A stretch of 63,047 nucleotides of DNA from Aquificaceae bacterium (GCA_025062075.1 JANXBA010000038.1:1-63047); one strand, 5' to 3'. Positions 347-8,623 are shown, numbered from the stretch's first letter. Notes: a model not told the origin generated them from the sequence alone. A program made the numbers and translations.

Positions 347-361
347 GGGGCCCTCGGCCCC
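347..361 (+). terminator. Possible hairpin terminator after thiC
   Basis: GGGGCC (347-352), a CTC loop, and GGCCCC (356-361) form a perfect 6-bp GC stem just after the thiC stop. Only two T residues follow, so as an intrinsic terminator it is weak. It may simply protect the 3' end. Confidence 0.35.
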
Positions 362-421
362 TTAACCAAACCTTAACATAAACTTAAAAGAAACTTAACT
401 TTTCTTCGCTAATATTTAGTT

Positions 422-1171
422 ATGTCCTTTGCCCTTTTGGAGCTACACGATGTAAGTCCCTACTACAAGACAGAATTCTTGGACGCTCTTGAACTTTTGG
501 AGGAGGTGGGTTGCCATAAATTCTCTCTTCTGGTGGTGCCTTACTTCTGGCATAGGGCACCGCTGGGAGAGAACAGAGAGTTTGTCTCCTTAGTAAAAAG
601 CACGGAGGCGGAGATAGTTCTGCACGGCTATACTCACAAAGGAAAGAAAAGGCTTCAGGACTTTCTTTGGACGGATGGGGAGGGAGAGTTTGGGGGGGTT
701 GGCTTGCAGGAGACCTACGAGAAGGTGCGAGCAGGTCTTGAGCTCTTTGAGTATCTGGGCTTTAGGACCGAGTTTTTTGTCCCGCCCGCCTGGATAGGCA
801 ACCCTTACCTGGAGGAGGTGCTCCGCTCCTTAGGCTTTAGAGCAGTTGCCTACCGCTGGCACGTAAAGGACCTCGTGTATAATACCTTCATCAGGTCGCC
901 CGTTCTCACCTTCAGCAGTAGAAGTGGGCTCTCTTGGCTTAGCATAAAGCTTATGCCGGAGCTGGGGCGACTTTACCAAAGGCATCGGGTGATTAGGCTC
1001 GCTCTGCACATGACGGACTTCAGAGACCCGAGAAAGACAAGTCTCTGGAGGTCTTTGCTTGGAGAAATCAAAAACTCAAGGAGGTGGACCAGCTATGGGG
1101 AGCTTTTTGGCAAAGGCGGACCTTCACCTTCACTCAAAGGCCTCCAACCTGCCGGGTGGATGGTTCAGTAG
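422..1171 (+). CDS. DUF2334 / polysaccharide-deacetylase-fold protein
   Basis: This 249-aa protein has the NodB-like deacetylase pattern of the DUF2334 group. It shows HDVSP at residues 9-13, the H-x3-H metal motif HGYTH at 68-72, FVPPAW at 119-124, and a late LHMTDF histidine. Such enzymes are metal-dependent de-N-acetylases, but the substrate of this group is unknown. Two glycosyltransferases directly downstream suggest glycolipid or cell-surface polysaccharide work. There is no Shine-Dalgarno sequence; a TAATAT hexamer at 410-415 sits 6 nt before the ATG. The 3' end overlaps the next gene by 77 nt in another frame. The overlapped tail (after about residue 224) is probably not part of the conserved fold. 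The function is inferred from fold and neighbours only. Confidence 0.8.
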   Translation: MSFALLELHDVSPYYKTEFLDALELLEEVGCHKFSLLVVPYFWHRAPLGENREFVSLVKSTEAEIVLHGYTHKGKKRLQDFLWTDGEGEFGGVGLQETYEKVRAGLELFEYLGFRTEFFVPPAWIGNPYLEEVLRSLGFRAVAYRWHVKDLVYNTFIRSPVLTFSSRSGLSWLSIKLMPELGRLYQRHRVIRLALHMTDFRDPRKTSLWRSLLGEIKNSRRWTSYGELFGKGGPSPSLKGLQPAGWMVQ

Positions 1172-3341
1172 GCTCATAGGTTGTCCCGAGAGCTTGACCG
1201 AGCCCATGGAGATATACAGAAGGCTCAAAGAGAGGGGCATGAGCTTTGTCACCATAACGGACCACAACACCATAAACGGGGTTTTAGAGATAGCCCACCT
1301 GCCGGAGGTGTTCATAAGCTGTGAATACACGGTGGAGGTGCCGGAGGAAAAGGCCAAGGTGCACGTACTCGCCTACGGGCTCAACGAGGAGCACCACAAA
1401 AACCTGCTCTCTCTCAGGGGCAACCTGCAGGAGTTTGTGAGGTATCTCAAGCTACATCGCATAGCCCATTCTTTGGCTCACCCTTTTTATTCGGTGCAGG
1501 GCACAAAGGTGAGCAAAAACTTGGTGGAAAAGCTTGTCCTACTCTTTGACAACTGGGAGGTCATAAACGGCACCCGTGGCGACGGAGTGAGATACATAGA
1601 GGAGTCCATCGCCCGCCTGTACGATGGGTGGGACAAGATACACCAGCTTGCGGAGAAGCACCGCATGGAGCATCAGCGCACGAGGGAGAGAATCACCTTC
1701 ACCGCGGGCTCCGACGACCACGGGGGTATGGACGTGGGAAGGACCTGGACCGGGGTGGAGGGCGCCAGAAGTAAAGAGGAATTTCTCAAGGGGCTGTGGG
1801 AAGGTAGAACGCAGGTGGGGACGGAGGAGCTGGGCGACAACAGACTTCTCAACATGGTCTGCAGGGTGGGCTACGACTTTCTGAGGAGCAAAGGCAGGAT
1901 ACCTTCAGAAATCCGTCCTGTAACCGACTACCTGTTTATGCACTCCGACAACGGTATGGTGGGCATGCTTCTCAGAAACTTTCTAAACGTAAGAGCGGAG
2001 AGACAGTACCTTCTGAGGGAGCTGGCAAAAGCTCTGCCTTCCATAGCTCTGGAGAGGTTTTTCAAAAGCCCCTCGCCGCAGACCATTGGGGAGCTGTGCC
2101 TGTCCCTCTTGGCTCATGGCTTCCCCGCCTTTTTAAAATACGCCCAGAAAAGAGAGGAGAAGAAAATAAAGCTCCTCGGCAAGGCCTTTGGCATCCAAAA
2201 CGGCGGAGCTCCGAAGGTGGCCTACCTCACAGATACCTACCACCACATAAACGGCGTTGCCAGAAGTGCCCGGCTCATCAGACAGATAGCTTTAGAAGAG
2301 GAGCTCCCCTTTACCGTGGTGGTCTGCAACTCTAAGGTAGCCCCGGAGGAGAATCTGGTAAACCTAAAACCCGTGGTGGAGATTCCCACGCCCTTCTACG
2401 AGGAGCTCCGCATGGGCCTGCCAAACCTGATAGAGCTGATGGACTTTATAGAGTCGGAGGGCTTTACGCAGGTGCACGTTGCCACGCCTGGACCCTTGGG
2501 TCTGATGGGCGTCTTGGTGAGCAAGATACTGGACCTTAGGCTCACCTTTGCCTTCCACACTGATATACCCTCCTACGCCTACACCTACACGGGCGACCCG
2601 GTGGTGGAAGAGCTCATGTGGAAGGCCTTCCTTCTGCTGGCAAACCTCTCGGACCGCTTCTTCGTCCCCTCCGAGCACTACAGAAACCTCTTCGTAAGCA
2701 AGGGCTTGGACCACGGTAAGGTGAGCCTCTTCAGACGGGGCGTGGACACGGAGCTCTTCTCCCCCCACAAGAGAGAAGAGGACTTCTGGGCAAGGAGGTT
2801 AAACGTAAAGAAGCATCAGAGGGTGGTGCTCTACGTGGGGCGCGTCTCCAAGGAGAAAGGGCTGGACACTTTCCTCCACACCGCCAAGTGCTTCCCGGAG
2901 GATGTCTTCGTGATAGTGGGGGACGGTCCCTACAGGGCGCAGGTGGAAGCCCAAAAGCCGAAGAACGTCCACACGGTGGGCTACATGGTGGGCGAGGAGC
3001 TGGCCAAGGCTTACGCAAGCTCGGACGTTTTCCTATTCCCCTCCGAGACGGAGACCTACGGTCAGGTGGTTCTGGAGGCCATGGCGAGCGGTCTGCCCGT
3101 GGTGGTAAGCTCAAGGGGTGCCTCCCACGAGCACGTGGAGGAAGGGCTGAACGGCTTTATCGCCACGAAGGCGGAGGAGTTCGTGGAAAAACTCTCCCTG
3201 CTCCTGTCCAACGAACAGCTCCGCAGGAGCATGTCCCAGGAAGCTCTCCAGAGGGCAAGAAGCCTAGACATGAGAAAGAGCTACGTAGACTACATGCTCT
3301 CCATCGCAGGTTTGGGAAGGCTTGTGCATGAAGCTGGTTGA
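1095..3341 (+). CDS. PHP-domain phosphoesterase fused to GT4-family glycosyltransferase
   Basis: This is a 748-aa fusion. The N-terminal half is a PHP metal-dependent phosphoesterase, with DLHLH at residues 9-13, TDHN at 55-58, a later SLAHPF and AGSDDHGG. From about residue 375 comes a GT-B glycosyltransferase of family 4, with a VGRVSKEKG nucleotide-site region and the E-x-Y-G-x6-E donor motif (SETETYGQVVLEAMASG) near residue 650. The ATG at 1095 is chosen over an upstream in-frame TTG at 1059 because AGGAGGT lies just before it. The product probably transfers a sugar to a lipid or surface acceptor, and the PHP half could hydrolyse a phosphate ester in the same pathway. The gene overlaps its upstream neighbour by 77 nt and its downstream neighbour by 14 nt. 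The acceptor cannot be read from sequence. Confidence 0.85.
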   Translation: MGSFLAKADLHLHSKASNLPGGWFSRLIGCPESLTEPMEIYRRLKERGMSFVTITDHNTINGVLEIAHLPEVFISCEYTVEVPEEKAKVHVLAYGLNEEHHKNLLSLRGNLQEFVRYLKLHRIAHSLAHPFYSVQGTKVSKNLVEKLVLLFDNWEVINGTRGDGVRYIEESIARLYDGWDKIHQLAEKHRMEHQRTRERITFTAGSDDHGGMDVGRTWTGVEGARSKEEFLKGLWEGRTQVGTEELGDNRLLNMVCRVGYDFLRSKGRIPSEIRPVTDYLFMHSDNGMVGMLLRNFLNVRAERQYLLRELAKALPSIALERFFKSPSPQTIGELCLSLLAHGFPAFLKYAQKREEKKIKLLGKAFGIQNGGAPKVAYLTDTYHHINGVARSARLIRQIALEEELPFTVVVCNSKVAPEENLVNLKPVVEIPTPFYEELRMGLPNLIELMDFIESEGFTQVHVATPGPLGLMGVLVSKILDLRLTFAFHTDIPSYAYTYTGDPVVEELMWKAFLLLANLSDRFFVPSEHYRNLFVSKGLDHGKVSLFRRGVDTELFSPHKREEDFWARRLNVKKHQRVVLYVGRVSKEKGLDTFLHTAKCFPEDVFVIVGDGPYRAQVEAQKPKNVHTVGYMVGEELAKAYASSDVFLFPSETETYGQVVLEAMASGLPVVVSSRGASHEHVEEGLNGFIATKAEEFVEKLSLLLSNEQLRRSMSQEALQRARSLDMRKSYVDYMLSIAGLGRLVHEAG

Positions 3342-4437
3342 CATAACCCCCTACTTTCACAGAAAGAGCGGAGGCATCAAGCGCTACCTGACGGAGAAGT
3401 CCAAGTTCCTGAAAGGTAAGGGCGTAGAGCACGTGCTCCTCATACCGGGCAAGGAGAGAAAAACCTACTGGCTTGAGGAGACAAAGGTTTACGAGCTTCC
3501 CTCCTTTCCCCTGCCTTTGACCGGGGGCTACCGTTTCTTCTCCTCCCTGTCGGAGATAAAGGAAATTCTCCAAAAAGAAGAGCCCGACATAGTGGAGCTG
3601 GGTGGGACCTACCAGCCTATACCCATGCTCAAGTCTGACCGCTACCTGCTCAGCGTCTTCTACCACTCGGACATAAGGACGGACCTCTCCCTCCTGCCCG
3701 CACCCGAAAGACTGAAAAGAACCTTCGTAGAGCGCACCGTAAGGAAAAAGCTCTCCAAGGCGGACCTTATCTTGGTGCCTTCGAGAAGACAGCAGGAATT
3801 TTTAGAGTCTTACGGGCTGGAGAGGGTCGTAACCGTAAACCTCGGAGTGGACACGGAGGTGTTCAACCCCTCCAAGAGAAACCCCTACTTCGAGAAAATC
3901 ATGCGCATAGGGGAACGCAAGTTTAAACTGCTCTACGTGGGCAGGCTGTCGCCCGAAAAGAACGTAGGCTTTCTCTTGGACTTTTTCCAGCACTTGGACC
4001 CCGCCCTCTTTCACCTGATAGTGGTGGGGGACGGTCCCGTCAGAAGGAAGGTGGAAAGGCTCGCCCAGAAGCTCCCCAACTTGAGCTACTTGGACTACGT
4101 CTATCGGAAAGAGGAGCTGGCGGAGATATACGCCAGCTGTGACATTTTCCTAAGTGCCTCCACGGGTGAGACCTACGGGCTCTGTTTCTTAGAGGCCCAG
4201 GCCTGCGGCTGTCTGCTGGTAGCTCCCAACATGGGTTTAGAGACTCAGCCCTTTGAGGAGTTCCTGCCAAAGGAGCTAACCGTAGATGCCTTCTACGAGG
4301 CCACGCTTAGAGCCTGCAACGCCCTGAGCGTGTCCACGAGAGAAAAGGTGAGTAGCTACGTGGCCACTCATTTCTCTTGGGAGGCCACCTTTGAAAAGCT
4401 CTTGGAGACCTACCGTAGCGCTCTGTCCACCCTTTAA
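3328..4437 (+). CDS. GT4-family glycosyltransferase
   Basis: This 369-aa GT-B enzyme of glycosyltransferase family 4 starts with the acceptor-side sequence YFHRKSGGIKRYL, which contains the glycine-rich loop typical of the family. It has LYVGRLSPEKN in the middle and the donor-binding signature TGETYGLCFLEAQACG near residue 275. The start is the ATG at 3328, which overlaps the end of the PHP-glycosyltransferase gene by 14 nt; an in-frame TTG two codons earlier is less likely. Together with the two upstream genes it forms a likely operon building a glycolipid or surface glycan. The sugar donor and acceptor are unknown. Confidence 0.85.
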   Translation: MKLVDITPYFHRKSGGIKRYLTEKSKFLKGKGVEHVLLIPGKERKTYWLEETKVYELPSFPLPLTGGYRFFSSLSEIKEILQKEEPDIVELGGTYQPIPMLKSDRYLLSVFYHSDIRTDLSLLPAPERLKRTFVERTVRKKLSKADLILVPSRRQQEFLESYGLERVVTVNLGVDTEVFNPSKRNPYFEKIMRIGERKFKLLYVGRLSPEKNVGFLLDFFQHLDPALFHLIVVGDGPVRRKVERLAQKLPNLSYLDYVYRKEELAEIYASCDIFLSASTGETYGLCFLEAQACGCLLVAPNMGLETQPFEEFLPKELTVDAFYEATLRACNALSVSTREKVSSYVATHFSWEATFEKLLETYRSALSTL

Positions 4438-4459
4438 CAGAATCTTAAAAATTTAGCCC

Positions 4460-4473: not shown

Positions 4474-4680
4474 ATGAAGGAGAGGATAGAGAGTCTGATG
4501 GAAGAGCTTGAAAGGGAAAAAAGAGCCTGTCACAAACTCCTGAAAAAAGGAGAAAAACTGAGAAAGAGAGAAAGGGACACCTTCCTGACGGAGAAGGACA
4601 GAACCATACTCATTGAGTCCTTTGTGGTCGGAGGCCTTCTGGAGAAACTCATCACCAGAGCTCTAAACAAGGTCTTTTAG
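4474..4680 (+). CDS. Small charged helical protein, unknown function
   Basis: This 68-aa protein is dominated by Lys, Glu and Arg (MEELEREKRACHKLLKKGEK) and is probably one long coiled-coil or helical hairpin with a more hydrophobic C-terminal third (ESFVVGGLLEKLITRAL). I do not recognise a family. It is preceded by a TATACT hexamer 8 nt upstream and has no ribosome binding site, so it looks like a separate leaderless unit 36 nt after the glycosyltransferase gene. Its stop overlaps the stop of the convergent SCP2-like gene by 4 nt. The even codon use and its own promoter argue that it is real. Confidence 0.6.
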   Translation: MKERIESLMEELEREKRACHKLLKKGEKLRKRERDTFLTEKDRTILIESFVVGGLLEKLITRALNKVF

Positions 4681-5012
4681 AGCAGTTTCTGTAGCGTGGA
4701 GAGGACCCTCTGGTAGTTGCCCGACACCTTGAGACGACCTTCAAAGAGGTATCTCACCGCCTTGGAGGGTTTTTCCAACAGCCTCATAAGGTCTCTGTAG
4801 CTCACCGCCACCTTGTCCTTGGCTCCCTCTGGGTTCTCCGTGTATGTTATCCTCCCCGAGCCTATCAGAAAGTGGGCCCTCTGCATGTTCGGCAGTTCCA
4901 CCACCAGAAGGAGGGGTTCTTGAATTTGTGAGAGCACCTCCCCGTGCTTTTCCTGTAGGTGATGGGCAATCAGTTTTAGTTCCCTTATGTAGTCCTCAGT
5001 ACTCACTTTCAA
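4677..5012 (-). CDS. SCP2 sterol-binding-domain-like protein
   Basis: This 111-aa protein has the features of a stand-alone SCP2 (sterol carrier) domain: an amphipathic N-terminal helix, a beta segment LLLVVELPNMQRAHFLIGSG, a KVAVSYRDLMRLLEKP helix and a C-terminal FEGRLKVSGNYQRVLSTLQKLL tail typical of the lipid-binding fold. In bacteria such domains bind hydrophobic ligands, but the ligand here is unknown. It is the last gene of the seven-gene P-type ATPase operon. The annotated TTG start overlaps the previous gene by 17 nt; a GTG at 5006 is an equally plausible start. Neither has a clear ribosome binding site, so coupled translation is likely. Confidence 0.7.
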   Translation of the reverse strand: MKVSTEDYIRELKLIAHHLQEKHGEVLSQIQEPLLLVVELPNMQRAHFLIGSGRITYTENPEGAKDKVAVSYRDLMRLLEKPSKAVRYLFEGRLKVSGNYQRVLSTLQKLL

Positions 5013-5253
5013 TGTGGATGACCCTTTCGTCCTTGGAGAGCCTCCCTATGATTTCTTCTAACACGGACGTGGCCTTCTCCTCCGTGGAGTATATGCCAAG
5101 AACAGCAGGCAGGAGCGGTTGGCTCATGTAGGCGACCACCTTGTAAACCACCCTTTTTCTACCCTCCACCTCTATCTTGGCCTCCTCCACGGACAGAGAT
5201 ATCACATGGAGGGTGTTGAGATACCTACCGCTCCTGGTCTTCAGGAAGTTCAT
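4996..5253 (-). CDS. Conserved-looking small protein of P-type ATPase operon, unknown
   Basis: This 85-aa protein is not recognised. It shows alternating beta-like stretches (TLHVISLSVEEAKIEVEGRK and VVYKVVAYMSQPL) and a C-terminal helix with acidic residues (EEKATSVLEEIIGRL). It has no cysteine and no membrane segment. Its ATG overlaps the stop of the upstream gene (GGATGA, 5250-5253) and its end overlaps the SCP2-like gene, so it is translationally coupled on both sides. The position inside the ATPase operon suggests an accessory role in the same process. No function is proposed. Confidence 0.6.
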   Translation of the reverse strand: MNFLKTRSGRYLNTLHVISLSVEEAKIEVEGRKRVVYKVVAYMSQPLLPAVLGIYSTEEKATSVLEEIIGRLSKDERVIHIESEY

Positions 5254-5522
5254 CCTTCTTGCTTATTTTCCTCTTCTTTTAGGGCCTTTTTGGCACCTTC
5301 CACCGCACCCTCCACCGAGTACTTGACCACTTTGAGAGCTCTCTCACCTATGTCGGCGGCGGTCTTGACTATCTCCTTGCTGACTTCCATCACCTTGGAA
5401 AGGGCTTCCGCGGGTAAGTCTTTGAGGCTTTTTTCCTCCGTCATGCCCATCTTTCTTCTCAGCTCCTCCAGCTCCGCCTTGATTTTTTCCAGCTCCTGAG
5501 CCAAGTCCTTCTTCTCTTCCAT
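5250..5522 (-). CDS. Coiled-coil / amphipathic-helix protein of P-type ATPase operon
   Basis: This 90-aa protein is not assigned to a family. The first third is a strongly charged coiled coil (QELEKIKAELEELRRKMG). The second half is rich in Ala, Val and Lys in the style of amphipathic or phasin-like helices (VKTAADIGERALKVVKYSVE) and has no full membrane segment. The ATG at 5522 is preferred over a GTG two codons upstream because GGAGGT lies 7 nt before it. It begins 16 nt after the ATPase stop and overlaps the next gene by 4 nt. It might form a scaffold at the membrane with the ATPase and the small membrane proteins, but that is inference. Confidence 0.65.
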   Translation of the reverse strand: MEEKKDLAQELEKIKAELEELRRKMGMTEEKSLKDLPAEALSKVMEVSKEIVKTAADIGERALKVVKYSVEGAVEGAKKALKEEENKQEG

Positions 5523-5538
5523 GGCCACTACCTCCTGC

Positions 5539-7611
5539 TTATTTTTTTAACGAGTATAACCCCAACAGCACGGTTGTGCCGTTGTTAATAAGCGTTGACA
5601 CGGAAGGTCCAAAAAGACCGAGGACAGAGCCTAAGAGCCCGAGGGTGTTGGCAAGGGAGTTAATCCTGTAGGAGGTCTTGAGCTTTTTCATGGTGCGCTC
5701 CGCTATGTCTACCGCGTCCACAAGGTGCCAGAGGCTGTCCCCGATTACCACGTCCGCCACCTCTATGGCTATGTCCGTGCCACTCCTCAGGGATATGCCC
5801 ACGTCCGCAGAGGACAGGGCAGGCGAGTCGTTAACGCCGTCTCCCACAAAGGCAACCACCCTCCCCTGCCTTTTCAACTCCTCTACCACCTTGGCCTTCT
5901 CCGCAGGAAAGACGCGGGCGTAGAACTCCTCTATGCTTAACTCCTTCGCTATGTACCGAGCTATGCCCTCGTTGTCTCCGGTGCAGAGCACCACCTTTTT
6001 GCCTCTTCTCCTGAGCTCCGCTACCACGTCCTTTGCCTCTTCCCTGAGTGGGTCTCTGAAGGTAAGAAGCCCTACTATCTTCTTATCCTTCACTAGGTAA
6101 AGCACGGACTTTGCCTCTCGGTGGAATTTGTCCACCAGCTCCCTCACCTCGTCCCCTATCTTTATGCGCTTTTTCTGCATAAAGCGGGTGCTACCCAGCA
6201 TGAACTTGACCCCTTCCAGCTCGCCCTCTATGCCCAGACCTATGTGATACTGGGAGTTCTCTCTGGGAACAGGAGACAGACCCCTGTCCTCCGCCAGCTT
6301 TACGATGGCCCTTGCCACTGGGTGGGTGATTCTCTGCTCCAGAGAGGCGGCATATTTGAGGACCTCCTCCTGAGAGATTTCCAGCCCCACTATGTCCTCC
6401 ACCACGGGATGTCCTACGGTCAAGGTGCCCGTCTTGTCCATCACGAAGGTGTCCACCCTCGAGAGGGCCTCCAGCTTGCCACCGCTCTTTATGAGAATCC
6501 CGTAGGTGGAGGCCTGAGCTACGCTGGAGAGCACCGTCAGGGGAGTGCTAAGGTGTATGCCCGTATGGTAGTCTATGATGAGGGTGGAGGTGAGCCTGTT
6601 TACTTGCCCACTCAGGGCGTAGGACAGAAGACCGAGCCACAAGGTAGGCTTGACCAAGCGGTTCGCCCTCTCCTCCGCCAGACGCTGGACATTTATGGGC
6701 TCTTTAATACTCTCTTCCACAATACGGGCTATCTTCGCCACCACCGTGTCCTCGCCCACCTCCTCCACGCGCACATAGAGCTTGCCGTCCTCCACAAAGG
6801 TCCCTGCAAAGACCTTGTCGCCGGGCTTTTTATGCACTGGGTTTGACTCGCCGGTAAGGGACGCCTGATTCACCAAAGCGTCCCCATCTTCCACCACGCC
6901 GTCCGCAGGTATCTTCTCGCCTGCGTAGACCGCAATCCTGCTCCCCTTTTTCAACTCTACAGCCTTGACCTTCACCGCTTGCCCGTTGCCCAGCAAGAGC
7001 CAAGCGCTGTCCTCCTTGTAGGAGAAGAGCTTCTCCACCTTCTCGTAGGCTTTTTTCTCTACCTTCTCCGACAGGTAGTCGCCAAGAGCCAGCAAAAAGA
7101 CCATAGTATGGGCGGACAGGGGACTACCCGTCAGGCTTGCCAAGACGATGGCGGAGGAGTCAAGAAGGTGCACATCTAACTTCCTGTTCCTGAGGGAGTT
7201 AAGCGCCTTTTCAAGAATGGGCTTTGAAAGCAGGAGGGTCATACCCGCCAGCACCGGGTTGGGCAGGAGACCTCTGAAGAGGTAGGGCAGGAAGGCAAGG
7301 GAAGTAAGGGCAAACCAGCGGGAGGTGCTGTCCTGCTTCTTTGCGGGCTTGGGCTTTTCTTTGGAGAGGTCCTCCAAGAAGACTTCCCTTGGGGTAGATT
7401 CTATGTGGTCTAAAAAGGCTATGAGGTCAAAGCTCCGAGGGTCGTATTCAAGGGTGAGCCTGCCGGAGCTCTTGGAGTACCTGACCTTGCGCACGCCCCC
7501 AAACCTTGAAAAGTAGGAGAGCAAGGTCTCCTCTGGGTGATGTAAGTGCTGGAAAAGGTAAGAGCTCAGCCTTATCCTTCCGGGAGAAAGGGACTCTACT
7601 TTGTAGGTCAT
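5539..7611 (-). CDS. Metal-type (P1B-like) P-type ATPase with atypical transmembrane motif
   Basis: This 690-aa pump has all catalytic motifs of the heavy-metal P-type ATPases: TGES at residues 253-256 (actuator), DKTGTLT at 392-398 (phosphorylated Asp392), HP at 430-431 (N-domain marker of P1B pumps) and GDGVNDSPAL at 590-599. Residues 1-80 look like a degenerate HMA-like ferredoxin fold without the CxxC copper motif. Where P1B pumps carry a CPC, CPH or SPC motif in a membrane helix, this protein has DYHTGIHLSTP (347-357), with no cysteine, so the usual cargo inference fails. Its ATG overlaps the upstream stop (ATGA, 7608-7611). It is the core of a seven-gene operon. Transport of some cation is likely; the ion and direction are unknown. 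Confidence 0.9.
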   Translation of the reverse strand: MTYKVESLSPGRIRLSSYLFQHLHHPEETLLSYFSRFGGVRKVRYSKSSGRLTLEYDPRSFDLIAFLDHIESTPREVFLEDLSKEKPKPAKKQDSTSRWFALTSLAFLPYLFRGLLPNPVLAGMTLLLSKPILEKALNSLRNRKLDVHLLDSSAIVLASLTGSPLSAHTMVFLLALGDYLSEKVEKKAYEKVEKLFSYKEDSAWLLLGNGQAVKVKAVELKKGSRIAVYAGEKIPADGVVEDGDALVNQASLTGESNPVHKKPGDKVFAGTFVEDGKLYVRVEEVGEDTVVAKIARIVEESIKEPINVQRLAEERANRLVKPTLWLGLLSYALSGQVNRLTSTLIIDYHTGIHLSTPLTVLSSVAQASTYGILIKSGGKLEALSRVDTFVMDKTGTLTVGHPVVEDIVGLEISQEEVLKYAASLEQRITHPVARAIVKLAEDRGLSPVPRENSQYHIGLGIEGELEGVKFMLGSTRFMQKKRIKIGDEVRELVDKFHREAKSVLYLVKDKKIVGLLTFRDPLREEAKDVVAELRRRGKKVVLCTGDNEGIARYIAKELSIEEFYARVFPAEKAKVVEELKRQGRVVAFVGDGVNDSPALSSADVGISLRSGTDIAIEVADVVIGDSLWHLVDAVDIAERTMKKLKTSYRINSLANTLGLLGSVLGLFGPSVSTLINNGTTVLLGLYSLKK

Positions 7612-7811
7612 TCTCCTTTCGCTTCCTGCTGGAGCTTGAGCTCCAAGGCCTTTACCATGGCTTCTATCTCTTTCTGAGTCTCTTCAAGCCTTCTTCTGTC
7701 TTTTGCCCTGTCCAGTATGTAGAGGGCGAGAATGCCAAGACCAAAGCCTAGGGCAAAACTAAAGGGGCCCGAACACACAGCCCTTCCAAGAATTGAAGCT
7801 ATCTGGTTCAT
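7608..7811 (-). CDS. Small membrane protein with charged helix (PacL-like layout)
   Basis: This 67-aa protein has one membrane segment (about residues 14-32, SGPFSFALGFGLGILALYIL) followed by a long charged helix (ETQKEIEAMVKALELKLQQE). I do not recognise a named family with certainty. The architecture resembles mycobacterial PacL proteins, small membrane partners of metal P-type ATPases, but no sequence motif proves that. It has a strong ribosome site (GGAGGT) directly after the previous gene's stop, and its own stop overlaps the ATPase ATG. It is probably an accessory subunit or platform for the pump. Confidence 0.7.
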   Translation of the reverse strand: MNQIASILGRAVCSGPFSFALGFGLGILALYILDRAKDRRRLEETQKEIEAMVKALELKLQQEAKGE

Positions 7812-7822
7812 CTTCTACCTCC

Positions 7823-8137
7823 TCACAGTTTTTCCTTTATCCTCTGGAGCATTTCTTGCTGTTTTTGGAGCACTTCCAGCTTTTTCTCCACCTCAAGCCT
7901 GTAGAGGTGTTTTGCCTCGGAGACCACGTCCTCCCAGAACTCCTTGCTCTCTTCTAAGTTGCCCGTGAGCCACTGCTGGAAGGCAATCACCTCCTTGGTG
8001 GTGGACACTAAAAAGGGCCTTGCGTCTCTGAGTAGCTTTCCTAGCACCACAAGACCCGCCAAGGCTCCAAAGCCATAGAGCATCATGTTTGTGGAAAAGC
8101 AACCACCAATAGTACTGGGAATATTCAAGTTAAACAT
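7823..8137 (-). CDS. Membrane protein with long charged helix (P-type ATPase accessory)
   Basis: This 104-aa protein has a short N-terminal region containing Cys13, a membrane segment about residues 18-36 (MMLYGFGALAGLVVLGKLL), and a long helix ending in a coiled coil (EVEKKLEVLQKQQEMLQRIK). The layout is the same as in the next protein, which suggests that the two are distant relatives or partners. The family is unknown to me. The ATG follows GGAGG at the end of the upstream gene, so the pair is coupled. Given the neighbours it probably assists the P-type ATPase in the cytoplasmic membrane. Alternatives such as a YtxH-like stress protein cannot be excluded. Confidence 0.7.
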   Translation of the reverse strand: MFNLNIPSTIGGCFSTNMMLYGFGALAGLVVLGKLLRDARPFLVSTTKEVIAFQQWLTGNLEESKEFWEDVVSEAKHLYRLEVEKKLEVLQKQQEMLQRIKEKL

Positions 8138-8148
8138 AACTAACCTCC

Positions 8149-8523
8149 TTAGAGTTTCTGCTTCAAGTAAGGAACTAAAAATATACTACAAACTGCGAAG
8201 GATACCAGACCTACCTTCCAGCCCAGCAGGAGCACGCTAAAGCTCAGCTTCACCGCCGGGTGTTTCAGGAAAGGTTGCAGGTAGAAGTTGTAGTCTTCGC
8301 CGGCAAGCTTCTGAAGAGTCTTGCGACGGGAAAGGTTCTCCAAAAGGTAGTAGGCGAAGCTCCCCCGCCTAAACTTTATCAGGAGCGTTCGGGTGTTTTC
8401 CTTGTACTCTACCCCCTCAATCCCCTCCATGCCACTTATGCCACGCAGAAAGAGGTTCCTCTCCTCCACGCTGGAAAAGTAGAGCCTTGCCTCACTTTCT
8501 CTCAGGGACACATGTTCAATCAT
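8149..8523 (-). CDS. HMA-like domain protein with C-terminal membrane hairpin
   Basis: This 124-aa protein resembles the N-terminal part of its operon's ATPase. It begins with a beta-alpha-beta ferredoxin-like unit (ARLYFSSVEERNLFL, GIEGVEYKENTRTLLIKF) lacking the CxxC metal motif, and ends with two hydrophobic stretches between about residues 88 and 120 (KLSFSVLLLGWKVGLVSFAV). It could be a split-off regulatory or docking domain for the pump. It is the first gene of the operon. A TATAAT hexamer 9 nt before the ATG and the absence of a ribosome site predict a leaderless start. The relationship to HMA_2-type domains is inferred from pattern only. Confidence 0.7.
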   Translation of the reverse strand: MIEHVSLRESEARLYFSSVEERNLFLRGISGMEGIEGVEYKENTRTLLIKFRRGSFAYYLLENLSRRKTLQKLAGEDYNFYLQPFLKHPAVKLSFSVLLLGWKVGLVSFAVCSIFLVPYLKQKL

Positions 8524-8538
8524 GCAGGTAAGATTATA
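8524..8538 (-). promoter_or_regulatory. -10 hexamer TATAAT of the P-type ATPase operon, 9 nt before ATG
   Basis: On the minus strand a perfect TATAAT occupies 8538-8533, followed by 9 nt and the ATG at 8523. A TTAACA is seen upstream of the palindrome. The spacing predicts a leaderless or nearly leaderless transcript for the seven-gene operon. Confidence 0.55.
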
Positions 8539-8553
8539 ACAGGACCCCTGTTA
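8537..8553. promoter_or_regulatory. 17-bp palindrome (candidate operator) at the ATPase operon promoter
   Basis: TAACAGGACCCCTGTTA is a perfect inverted repeat with 7-bp arms around a 3-bp centre. It touches the upstream edge of the -10 hexamer of the minus-strand ATPase operon, where a repressor or MerR-like activator would act. No regulator gene next to it is obvious; the LysR gene at 9170 lies on the other strand. Confidence 0.5.
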
Positions 8554-8623
8554 AGGTTGTGTTAAGAGGCTCGGGCTTTGAGGCTGGTAGCGGTGGCCAG
8601 CTTTTTCAAGCTCTGATTTGTGT

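Follow-up and report, generated by a model that had tools for sequence, protein, structure and literature searches.

P1B-type ATPases are usually pictured as soft-metal exporters with Cys/His sites and control by metal sensors. One of them is FezB, the P1B-6 pump of the fez clusters (FezA/B/C). An HN motif in the sixth transmembrane helix (TM6) is a signature of P1B-6 ATPases (PMC9374683), and these pumps are typically encoded together with PacL-like proteins of the DUF6110 type (PMC9374683; PMC13043812), while FezC has an HMA-like N-terminus and DUF4405-like heme-binding His (PMC10979944). Here we describe an operon for a related pump in a stretch of 63,047 nucleotides (the window), which is contig C9 of the 1.25-Mb genome of an Aquificaceae bacterium (GCA_025062075.1 JANXBA010000038.1:1-63047). 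The operon has seven genes, g1 to g7, and an eighth gene nearby, f68, belongs to the same system. Read from sequence, it is best understood as a phosphate-starvation-induced cation-pump platform with an SCP2 lipid-binding subunit. What appears to be new is an ATPase clade whose membrane site lacks thiols, together with a Pho box on the operon; the conserved box and the phosphate-starvation context were both absent from an earlier note on this DNA.

The ATPase and its membrane partners

The product of g4 matches TIGR01525 (E 1.5e-146; NCBIfam subfamily: heavy-metal P-type ATPase), and its N-terminal part is an HMA_2 domain (E 2.8e-4). Its orthologs are 72-87% identical in most genomes of the genus and 51-63% identical elsewhere in the order, and the catalytic motifs DKTGT, TGE (TGES) and GDGVND are intact. 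The membrane motifs have changed. In the fourth core helix (M4), g4 reads YHT within DYHTGIH where CPC is usual and YSC is found in P1B-6 pumps, and in our alignment Cys is absent from the M4 motif position in all 18 Aquificota and Thermodesulfobacteria rows of what we call the thiol-free clade. In the last helix (M6), HN has become NN in every row of the clade except Deinococcus, which has SH. The thiol-free ATPases of the operon, Hydrogenobaculum, Gloeothece and Deinococcus form a single clade in the tree (support 100/98). Its canonical P1B-6 neighbours are pumps of Vibrio, Azospirillum, Arcobacter, Cereibacter and Desulfobacterota, with which it makes up a 29-row HMA2/P1B-6 superclade (support 99/97). 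Judged by tree and motifs, g4 descends from the P1B-6 (FezB/CtpC-like) line and has lost its thiol and imidazole ligands, a change that would favour harder cations. An HxxxH pattern in M4 was considered as a general conserved metal site and rejected, Caldimicrobium and Hydrogenobaculum both breaking it.

One Caldimicrobium genome (G064) carries the eight-gene operon and, on a separate contig, a canonical P1B-6 cluster, from which we argue that the two kinds of pump have different jobs. At the Caldimicrobium locus L085 (151-6975), a canonical P1B-6 cluster (DYSCAL, HN) adjoins TonB-receptor-like and ExbBD-like genes, and the thiol-free operon is present in that genome too. Degraded pumps were seen as well: L086 (10231-12258) and L087 (2093-4180) have a second P1B-6-type ATPase in tandem with an intact one, its motifs destroyed (NKAGILT, GGGIND), which is likely a dead pump retained as a partner subunit. 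In Gloeothece (L078, 6708-7959), an HMA2 protein whose ATPase-like part apparently has AAKSFFAL in place of DKTGT adjoins the live thiol-free pump and is possibly another dead relative.

The ATPase, the HMA2-like g1 and the single-helix proteins g2 and g3 make up a core that is, by profile comparison, homologous to P1B-6 (FezB/CtpC-like) clusters. The match of g1 to HMA is weak for the single sequence and clear when its profile is compared with HMA2 proteins (HHalign 95%, E 5e-8); neither a heme His pair nor an invariant His was found among its orthologs. Both g2 and g3 have one N-terminal TM helix followed by a long charged cytoplasmic region and are encoded beside a P1B-6-like pump. In Desulfobacterota, g2-like proteins beside canonical P1B-6 pumps match g2 closely (HHalign 99%, E 4e-17, 43% identity) and g3-like proteins of such clusters match g3 (HHalign 87%). 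The g2 profile also matches a DUF6110-type protein next to a canonical YSC/HN P1B-6 ATPase (E 4e-4), while a sequence match to DUF6110 itself (PF19605) was obtained for 1 of 12 g2 members and is weak (E 0.023). Because the core is homologous to clusters around P1B-6 ATPases, we regard the analogy with PacL-type partners as sound. A direct relationship of g2 to DUF1490 was considered and dropped (HHalign 2% to a DUF1490 protein), and a match to DUF5132, a family on which our literature search found no paper, is weak (HHalign 72%, E 3e-5, one sequence). The three small proteins g1, g2 and g3 all have a Cys at the membrane segment, and in each case it is kept by every ortholog or almost every one, although the g1-like proteins of Hydrogenobaculum lack it; a GGC motif of g2 is invariant in full-operon members. 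No C-terminal metal-binding motif was found in g2 or g3, whose C-termini are rich in K/E/Q and have no His/Asp cluster.

Pho boxes at the operon and elsewhere

In members of the genus, the direct repeat CTTAAC-N5-CTTAAC (commonest form CTTAACCAAATCTTAACA) lies 5' of g1, and after it, close to the start codon, comes a -10-like hexamer. The core of the repeat and its 11-bp period are those of the cyanobacterial Pho box CTTAACCT, which consists of 8-bp repeats with a 3-bp linker (PMC1906773). The exact 18-mer box (CTTAAC-N5-CTTAACA) occurs at five sites in the whole genome and at none in a reversed control; the sites belong to pstS-pstC-pstA-pstB, the PhoX phosphatase, a DUF2334-glycosyltransferase operon and g1, and the last, at C19, is without clear gene context. 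Relatives have the box before pstS, PhoX, PhoU with a histidine kinase, a phosphate-selective porin and TonB-ExbBD genes. We trained a weight matrix on those Pho-type promoters, with this operon and f68 left out, and it found only five sites above 8 bits in the 63 kb, at 361, 372 and 383 (before 422), 4433 (f68) and 8549 (g1); these score 16-27 bits and the next site 7.7. With up to two mismatches allowed there are seven box sites where 1.6 are expected, and none of 100 shuffles gave as many as seven. A perfect inverted repeat over the g1 promoter, TAACAGG-N3-CCTGTTA (8536-8552), was considered as an operator and discarded, since it is the direct repeat that is conserved in relatives and not the inverted one.

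The association extends beyond the genus. At five loci of Hydrogenothermaceae (L044, L045, L046, L047 and L060) the box precedes whichever gene opens the operon, and in Hydrogenobaculum it precedes the core operon and ExbB. Thermodesulfobacteria have 11-bp tandem TTTAAC repeats before g1 and/or f68, pstS, a porin-like gene and the DUF2334-glycosyltransferase operon; before g1 they exceed shuffled sequence at L064, L065 and L067 (P 0.000-0.003) and not at L066. The neighbouring genes, as identified by sequence, point the same way, with PstS, PstC, PstA, PstB and PhoU-like genes just 5' of the operon at L045 and L060 and pyrophosphatase-like and PhoU-like genes just downstream of it at L119. It is thus a strongly supported prediction that the operon, f68 and the neighbouring glycosyltransferase operon are under Pho (phosphate-starvation) control via a PhoB-type regulator. 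In the titles and abstracts searched, we found no literature linking a bacterial P-type ATPase to the Pho regulon in this way.

The co-regulated neighbour, which encodes a DUF2334 protein and two family-4 glycosyltransferases (GT4; Table 1), is a candidate operon for phosphate-starvation lipid or glycan remodelling; we read the N-terminal part of its first glycosyltransferase as PHP-like. Among 136 Aquificota genomes, with kinship ignored, a DUF2334 gene is present in 29 of the 30 operon carriers and in 16 of the 106 others, the sole carrier without it (G282) having a decayed copy of the operon. In the same comparison, PhoX is found in 19/30 operon genomes and 10/106 others (Fisher p 5e-9). 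A Pho-boxed DUF2334 gene with two family-4 glycosyltransferases, like that at 361-4437, is also present in a thermodesulfobacterial genome (L204).

Conservation and composition of the gene set

Seven open reading frames on the minus strand, from 8523 down to 4677, form the operon. The earlier note had listed these seven in this order, and its HMA-like membrane protein, its two small proteins with one membrane helix and a long charged helix, its P-type ATPase and its SCP2-like protein are all borne out, as is the idea of PacL-type small partners, through the DUF6110-type match of g2. Other statements in it need amending. The description of the ATPase as P1B-like is right about descent but hides that both signature motifs are altered. 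Coupling, claimed for all junctions, applies to three of them, which overlap, the others being tightly packed with gaps of 10-11 nt (+11, +11, -4, +10, -4 and -17 nt in order from g1 to g7). Finally, the system has eight genes rather than seven.

Co-occurrence across genomes, the check that the note had set beforehand, shows g1-g7 in the same order in about 20 genomes of two phyla, with gene-for-gene conservation in Aquificaceae, Hydrogenothermaceae, a third Aquificota family and Thermodesulfobacteria. Public records with the system come from Aquificaceae, Sulfurihydrogenibium and other Hydrogenothermaceae, Caldimicrobium and Thermodesulfobacteriaceae. As the order of such small genes is kept at this distance, the operon is far from a chance arrangement. 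Hydrogenobaculum has the g1-g4 core only, and G325, from a further family of the same class, has all eight genes on one strand. Cation-efflux genes of the CDF family are inserted in two lineages, after g5 at L044 and directly behind the ATPase gene in Hydrogenobaculum; CDF proteins in or after the operon were seen at L044 (9827-10672), L050 (9499), L051 (10132) and L070 (10576).

The eighth gene, f68, runs towards g7, and the two convergent genes share 4 nt. Its sequence is strongly conserved (LTEKDRTILIESFVVGGLLE), and it is the first operon gene in Thermodesulfobacteria and the last in the third Aquificota family (L119/G325), in both cases on the operon's strand; the G029 copy is at another place, unlinked to the operon, and yet retains its own Pho box. 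On this comparative evidence, f68 is the eighth member of the system. Single-protein scans of Pfam and NCBIfam gave no name to g2, g3, g5, g6 or f68. Against solved structures, no fold similar to the g6 model was found, its best structural matches being small uncharacterised phage proteins (TM 0.79). For g7, the SCP2 family (PF02036) is matched in 15/15 orthologs (best E 8e-8), and the predicted fold matches SCP2 structures (E ~1e-6).

Table 1. Features of the system and of the co-regulated neighbouring operon in the window
Feature	Position	Strand	Remarks
g1, HMA2-like membrane protein, 124 aa	8149..8523	-	C-terminal hydrophobic segment, conserved Cys112
g2, one membrane helix and long charged helix, 104 aa	7823..8137	-	PacL/DUF6110-like scaffold candidate
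g3, second single-helix small protein, 67 aa	7608..7811	-	invariant N-terminal CS
g4, P-type ATPase, 690 aa, N-terminal HMA2 domain	5539..7611	-	M4 DYHTGIH, M6 INNG
g5, 92 aa	5250..5528	-	N-terminal coiled coil and strongly amphipathic helix (moment 0.67), no transmembrane helix
g6, alpha/beta protein, 85 aa	4996..5253	-	confident predicted fold, pLDDT 93
g7, SCP2-fold lipid-binding-type protein, 111 aa, TTG start	4677..5012	-	PF02036 and fold
f68, helical protein, 68 aa	4474..4680	+	eighth member of system
Pho box CTTAACACAACCTTAACA, upstream of g1	8549..8566	-	10 nt before TATAAT (8533-8538)
Pho-box-like site TTTAACAGAATCTTAAAA, weaker copy	4433..4450	+	23 nt before f68
Tandem Pho boxes, four CTTAA repeats, 11-bp period	361..400	+	before DUF2334-glycosyltransferase operon
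DUF2334 protein, co-regulated neighbour	422..1171	+	Pho boxes 361..400
Family-4 glycosyltransferase, co-regulated neighbour	1059..3341	+	Pfam: glycosyltransferase part only
Second family-4 glycosyltransferase, co-regulated neighbour	3322..4437	+	same Pho-boxed operon

Further observations concern individual copies of the operon. At L122 (5641-8744; G282) it is decayed, with the ATPase in pieces and fused to g3, and g6 and g7 missing. Operons of the Aquificaceae type at L054 and L058 are in records labelled Acidobacteria (J001) and Caldimicrobium, contigs that are probably misnamed or misbinned. In Caldimicrobium, a gene that by eye is catalase-peroxidase-like lies directly 5' of f68 (L065 4981-7218, L066 4932-7139). 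No RNA families or tRNAs were found in the window.

Interpretation and comparison with known systems

We lean, by a little, towards an explanation in which the eight genes encode a membrane complex around a thiol-free, P1B-6-derived ATPase that is made at low phosphate and exports a hard divalent cation. When phosphate falls, a PhoB-type regulator would activate the operon, f68 and the glycosyltransferase operon through their Pho boxes, a step with strong backing. The long helices of g2 and g3, each anchored by one membrane helix, would cluster or stabilise the pump, in the manner of PacL with CtpC. As a separate HMA2 domain with a membrane anchor of its own, g1 may bind the pump next to the HMA2 domain that the pump itself has, with pump, g1, g2 and g3 assembled in one membrane platform. 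The pump would then export a divalent cation of the hard type (Mg, Mn, Ca or Fe(II), not Cu, Zn or Cd) from the cytosol, and at a guess this might dispose of cation that is freed as its chief partners inside the cell, phosphate and polyphosphate, become depleted; this is the weakest step. The amphipathic g5 and the SCP2 protein g7 could tune the nearby membrane or bring lipid there, and the glycosyltransferases could remodel lipids or glycans.

The earlier note had left the function at metal- or lipid-linked transport. Transport of a divalent cation is favoured by the lineage of the pump and by the CDF genes inserted at the operon, whereas a lipid role is suggested by the SCP2 protein, the amphipathic helix and the glycosyltransferase operon. 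Several observations count against the cation-pump platform. The M4 His is not universal, with YYT or FYT in Caldimicrobium and YNT without the flanking His in Hydrogenobaculum, and the ligand set is therefore uncertain. The CDF proteins, inspected by eye, lack the usual zinc-site His/Asp, which parallels the altered pump site and means that it is their family membership by itself that points to a divalent metal. The relaxed box of Thermodesulfobacteria is not enriched genome-wide over control, for which reason only local tandem repeats and gene context were used for that group, and a strong box is absent at L048 and on the g1 side of L119 and L066.

A bolder version of this proposal, which we think doubtful, is that the thiol-free ATPase with its scaffold, amphipathic and SCP2 subunits forms a cation/phosphate compartment or couples cation pumping to lipid remodelling, which would make it a previously unknown phosphate-starvation machine of deep-branching thermophiles. 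Another idea, likewise doubtful, is that of a ferrosome-like organelle, in which a divergent fez cluster would make membrane-bound stores of iron (or iron-phosphate or polyphosphate) by means of a FezB-like pump, a FezC-like g1, the small membrane proteins and the membrane-shaping g5 and g7. It agrees with the position of the pump inside the P1B-6 superclade, with the g2/g3 homologs in canonical P1B-6 clusters and with the HMA2 plus DUF4405-like protein that such clusters of related Desulfobacterota carry, as in FezC (PMC10979944); a membrane compartment would be a fitting place for SCP2 and an amphipathic helix, and a phosphate-containing store would agree with the phosphate link. However, g1 lacks the conserved heme His pair, the FezB-type metal motifs are replaced in the pump, and control is of the Pho type, in contrast to the Fur repression of the C. 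difficile fez cluster (PMC12574912).

The pump could instead export Fe/Ca cofactors for Pho-regulated periplasmic phosphatases such as PhoX, which we consider improbable. CcoI-type pumps supply copper oxidases in a comparable manner. In relatives as in this genome, the PhoX promoter shares the box with the operon, the two co-occur as described above, and in Hydrogenobaculum a PF04185 phosphoesterase lies just upstream; against this, 11 of the 30 operon genomes are without PhoX and 10 PhoX genomes are without the operon. Slightly less probable still is a role in lipid or glycolipid handling, with the ATPase complex and its SCP2 subunit moving or turning over lipids, together with the glycosyltransferases, during phosphate-starvation membrane remodelling. 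The SCP2 fold of g7, the amphipathic g5 and the co-regulated DUF2334-GT4-GT4 operon with its near-constant presence would be in keeping with this, but the ATPase is an ion pump of P1 type with an HMA2 domain rather than a P4 flippase, and the CDF partners point to cations. That the ATPase is an ordinary exporter of copper, zinc or cadmium, as the NCBIfam subfamily would suggest, and that the small genes hitch-hike with it is highly improbable, because YSC has become YHT in M4, leaving no Cys, and HN has become NN in M6, and also given a gene set kept over two phyla and Pho rather than metal-type control.

Compared with the usual picture of P1B-type pumps, the thiol-free clade has lost the characteristic ligands, kept the catalytic machinery, gained a lipid-binding subunit and apparently come under the control of phosphate supply. 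If confirmed, the cation-pump platform would join cation transport to the Pho response and pose a specific substrate question for an uncharacterised clade that is also present in cyanobacteria and Deinococcus. It also supplies context and regulation for small conserved families of unknown function (g2, g3, g5, g6 and f68).

Among known systems, the canonical P1B-6 clusters of the DUF6110/HMA2 type (Desulfobacterota, Azospirillum, Arcobacter, Vibrio) share with the operon a homologous ATPase with N-terminal HMA2 and a separate HMA2 membrane protein, and those of Desulfobacterota also the g2/g3-like single-helix proteins. They retain Cys in M4 (YSC) and HN in M6, whereas g4 has neither signature and is therefore not a standard P1B-6 pump; moreover, g5, g6, g7, f68 and the Pho box were not found in these clusters. 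The thiol-free HMA2 ATPases of Gloeothece and of Deinococcus plasmids belong to the clade of g4 and have a D-F-x-[TS]-G-I motif, and the Gloeothece locus has a DUF5132 protein with WEDLVAEAK nearby, but g3, g5, g6, g7 and f68 were not noted at these loci, which have no Pho box. The fez clusters resemble the operon in combining a P1B-6-type pump with an HMA-like membrane protein and small membrane proteins. Since the heme His and the pump metal motifs are missing, the operon cannot, on these two features, be classed as a fez cluster, from which it also differs in its Pho rather than Fur control and its four extra genes. Finally, the PacL/CtpC effluxosomes of mycobacteria (DUF1490) likewise place a small one-helix protein with a long charged region beside a P1B-6-like ATPase, although the operon encodes two such proteins instead of one, g2 has neither a C-terminal metal-binding motif nor a direct DUF1490 match, and control is by Pho. 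By analogy, the system may work like the PacL/CtpC and P1B-6/DUF6110 systems.

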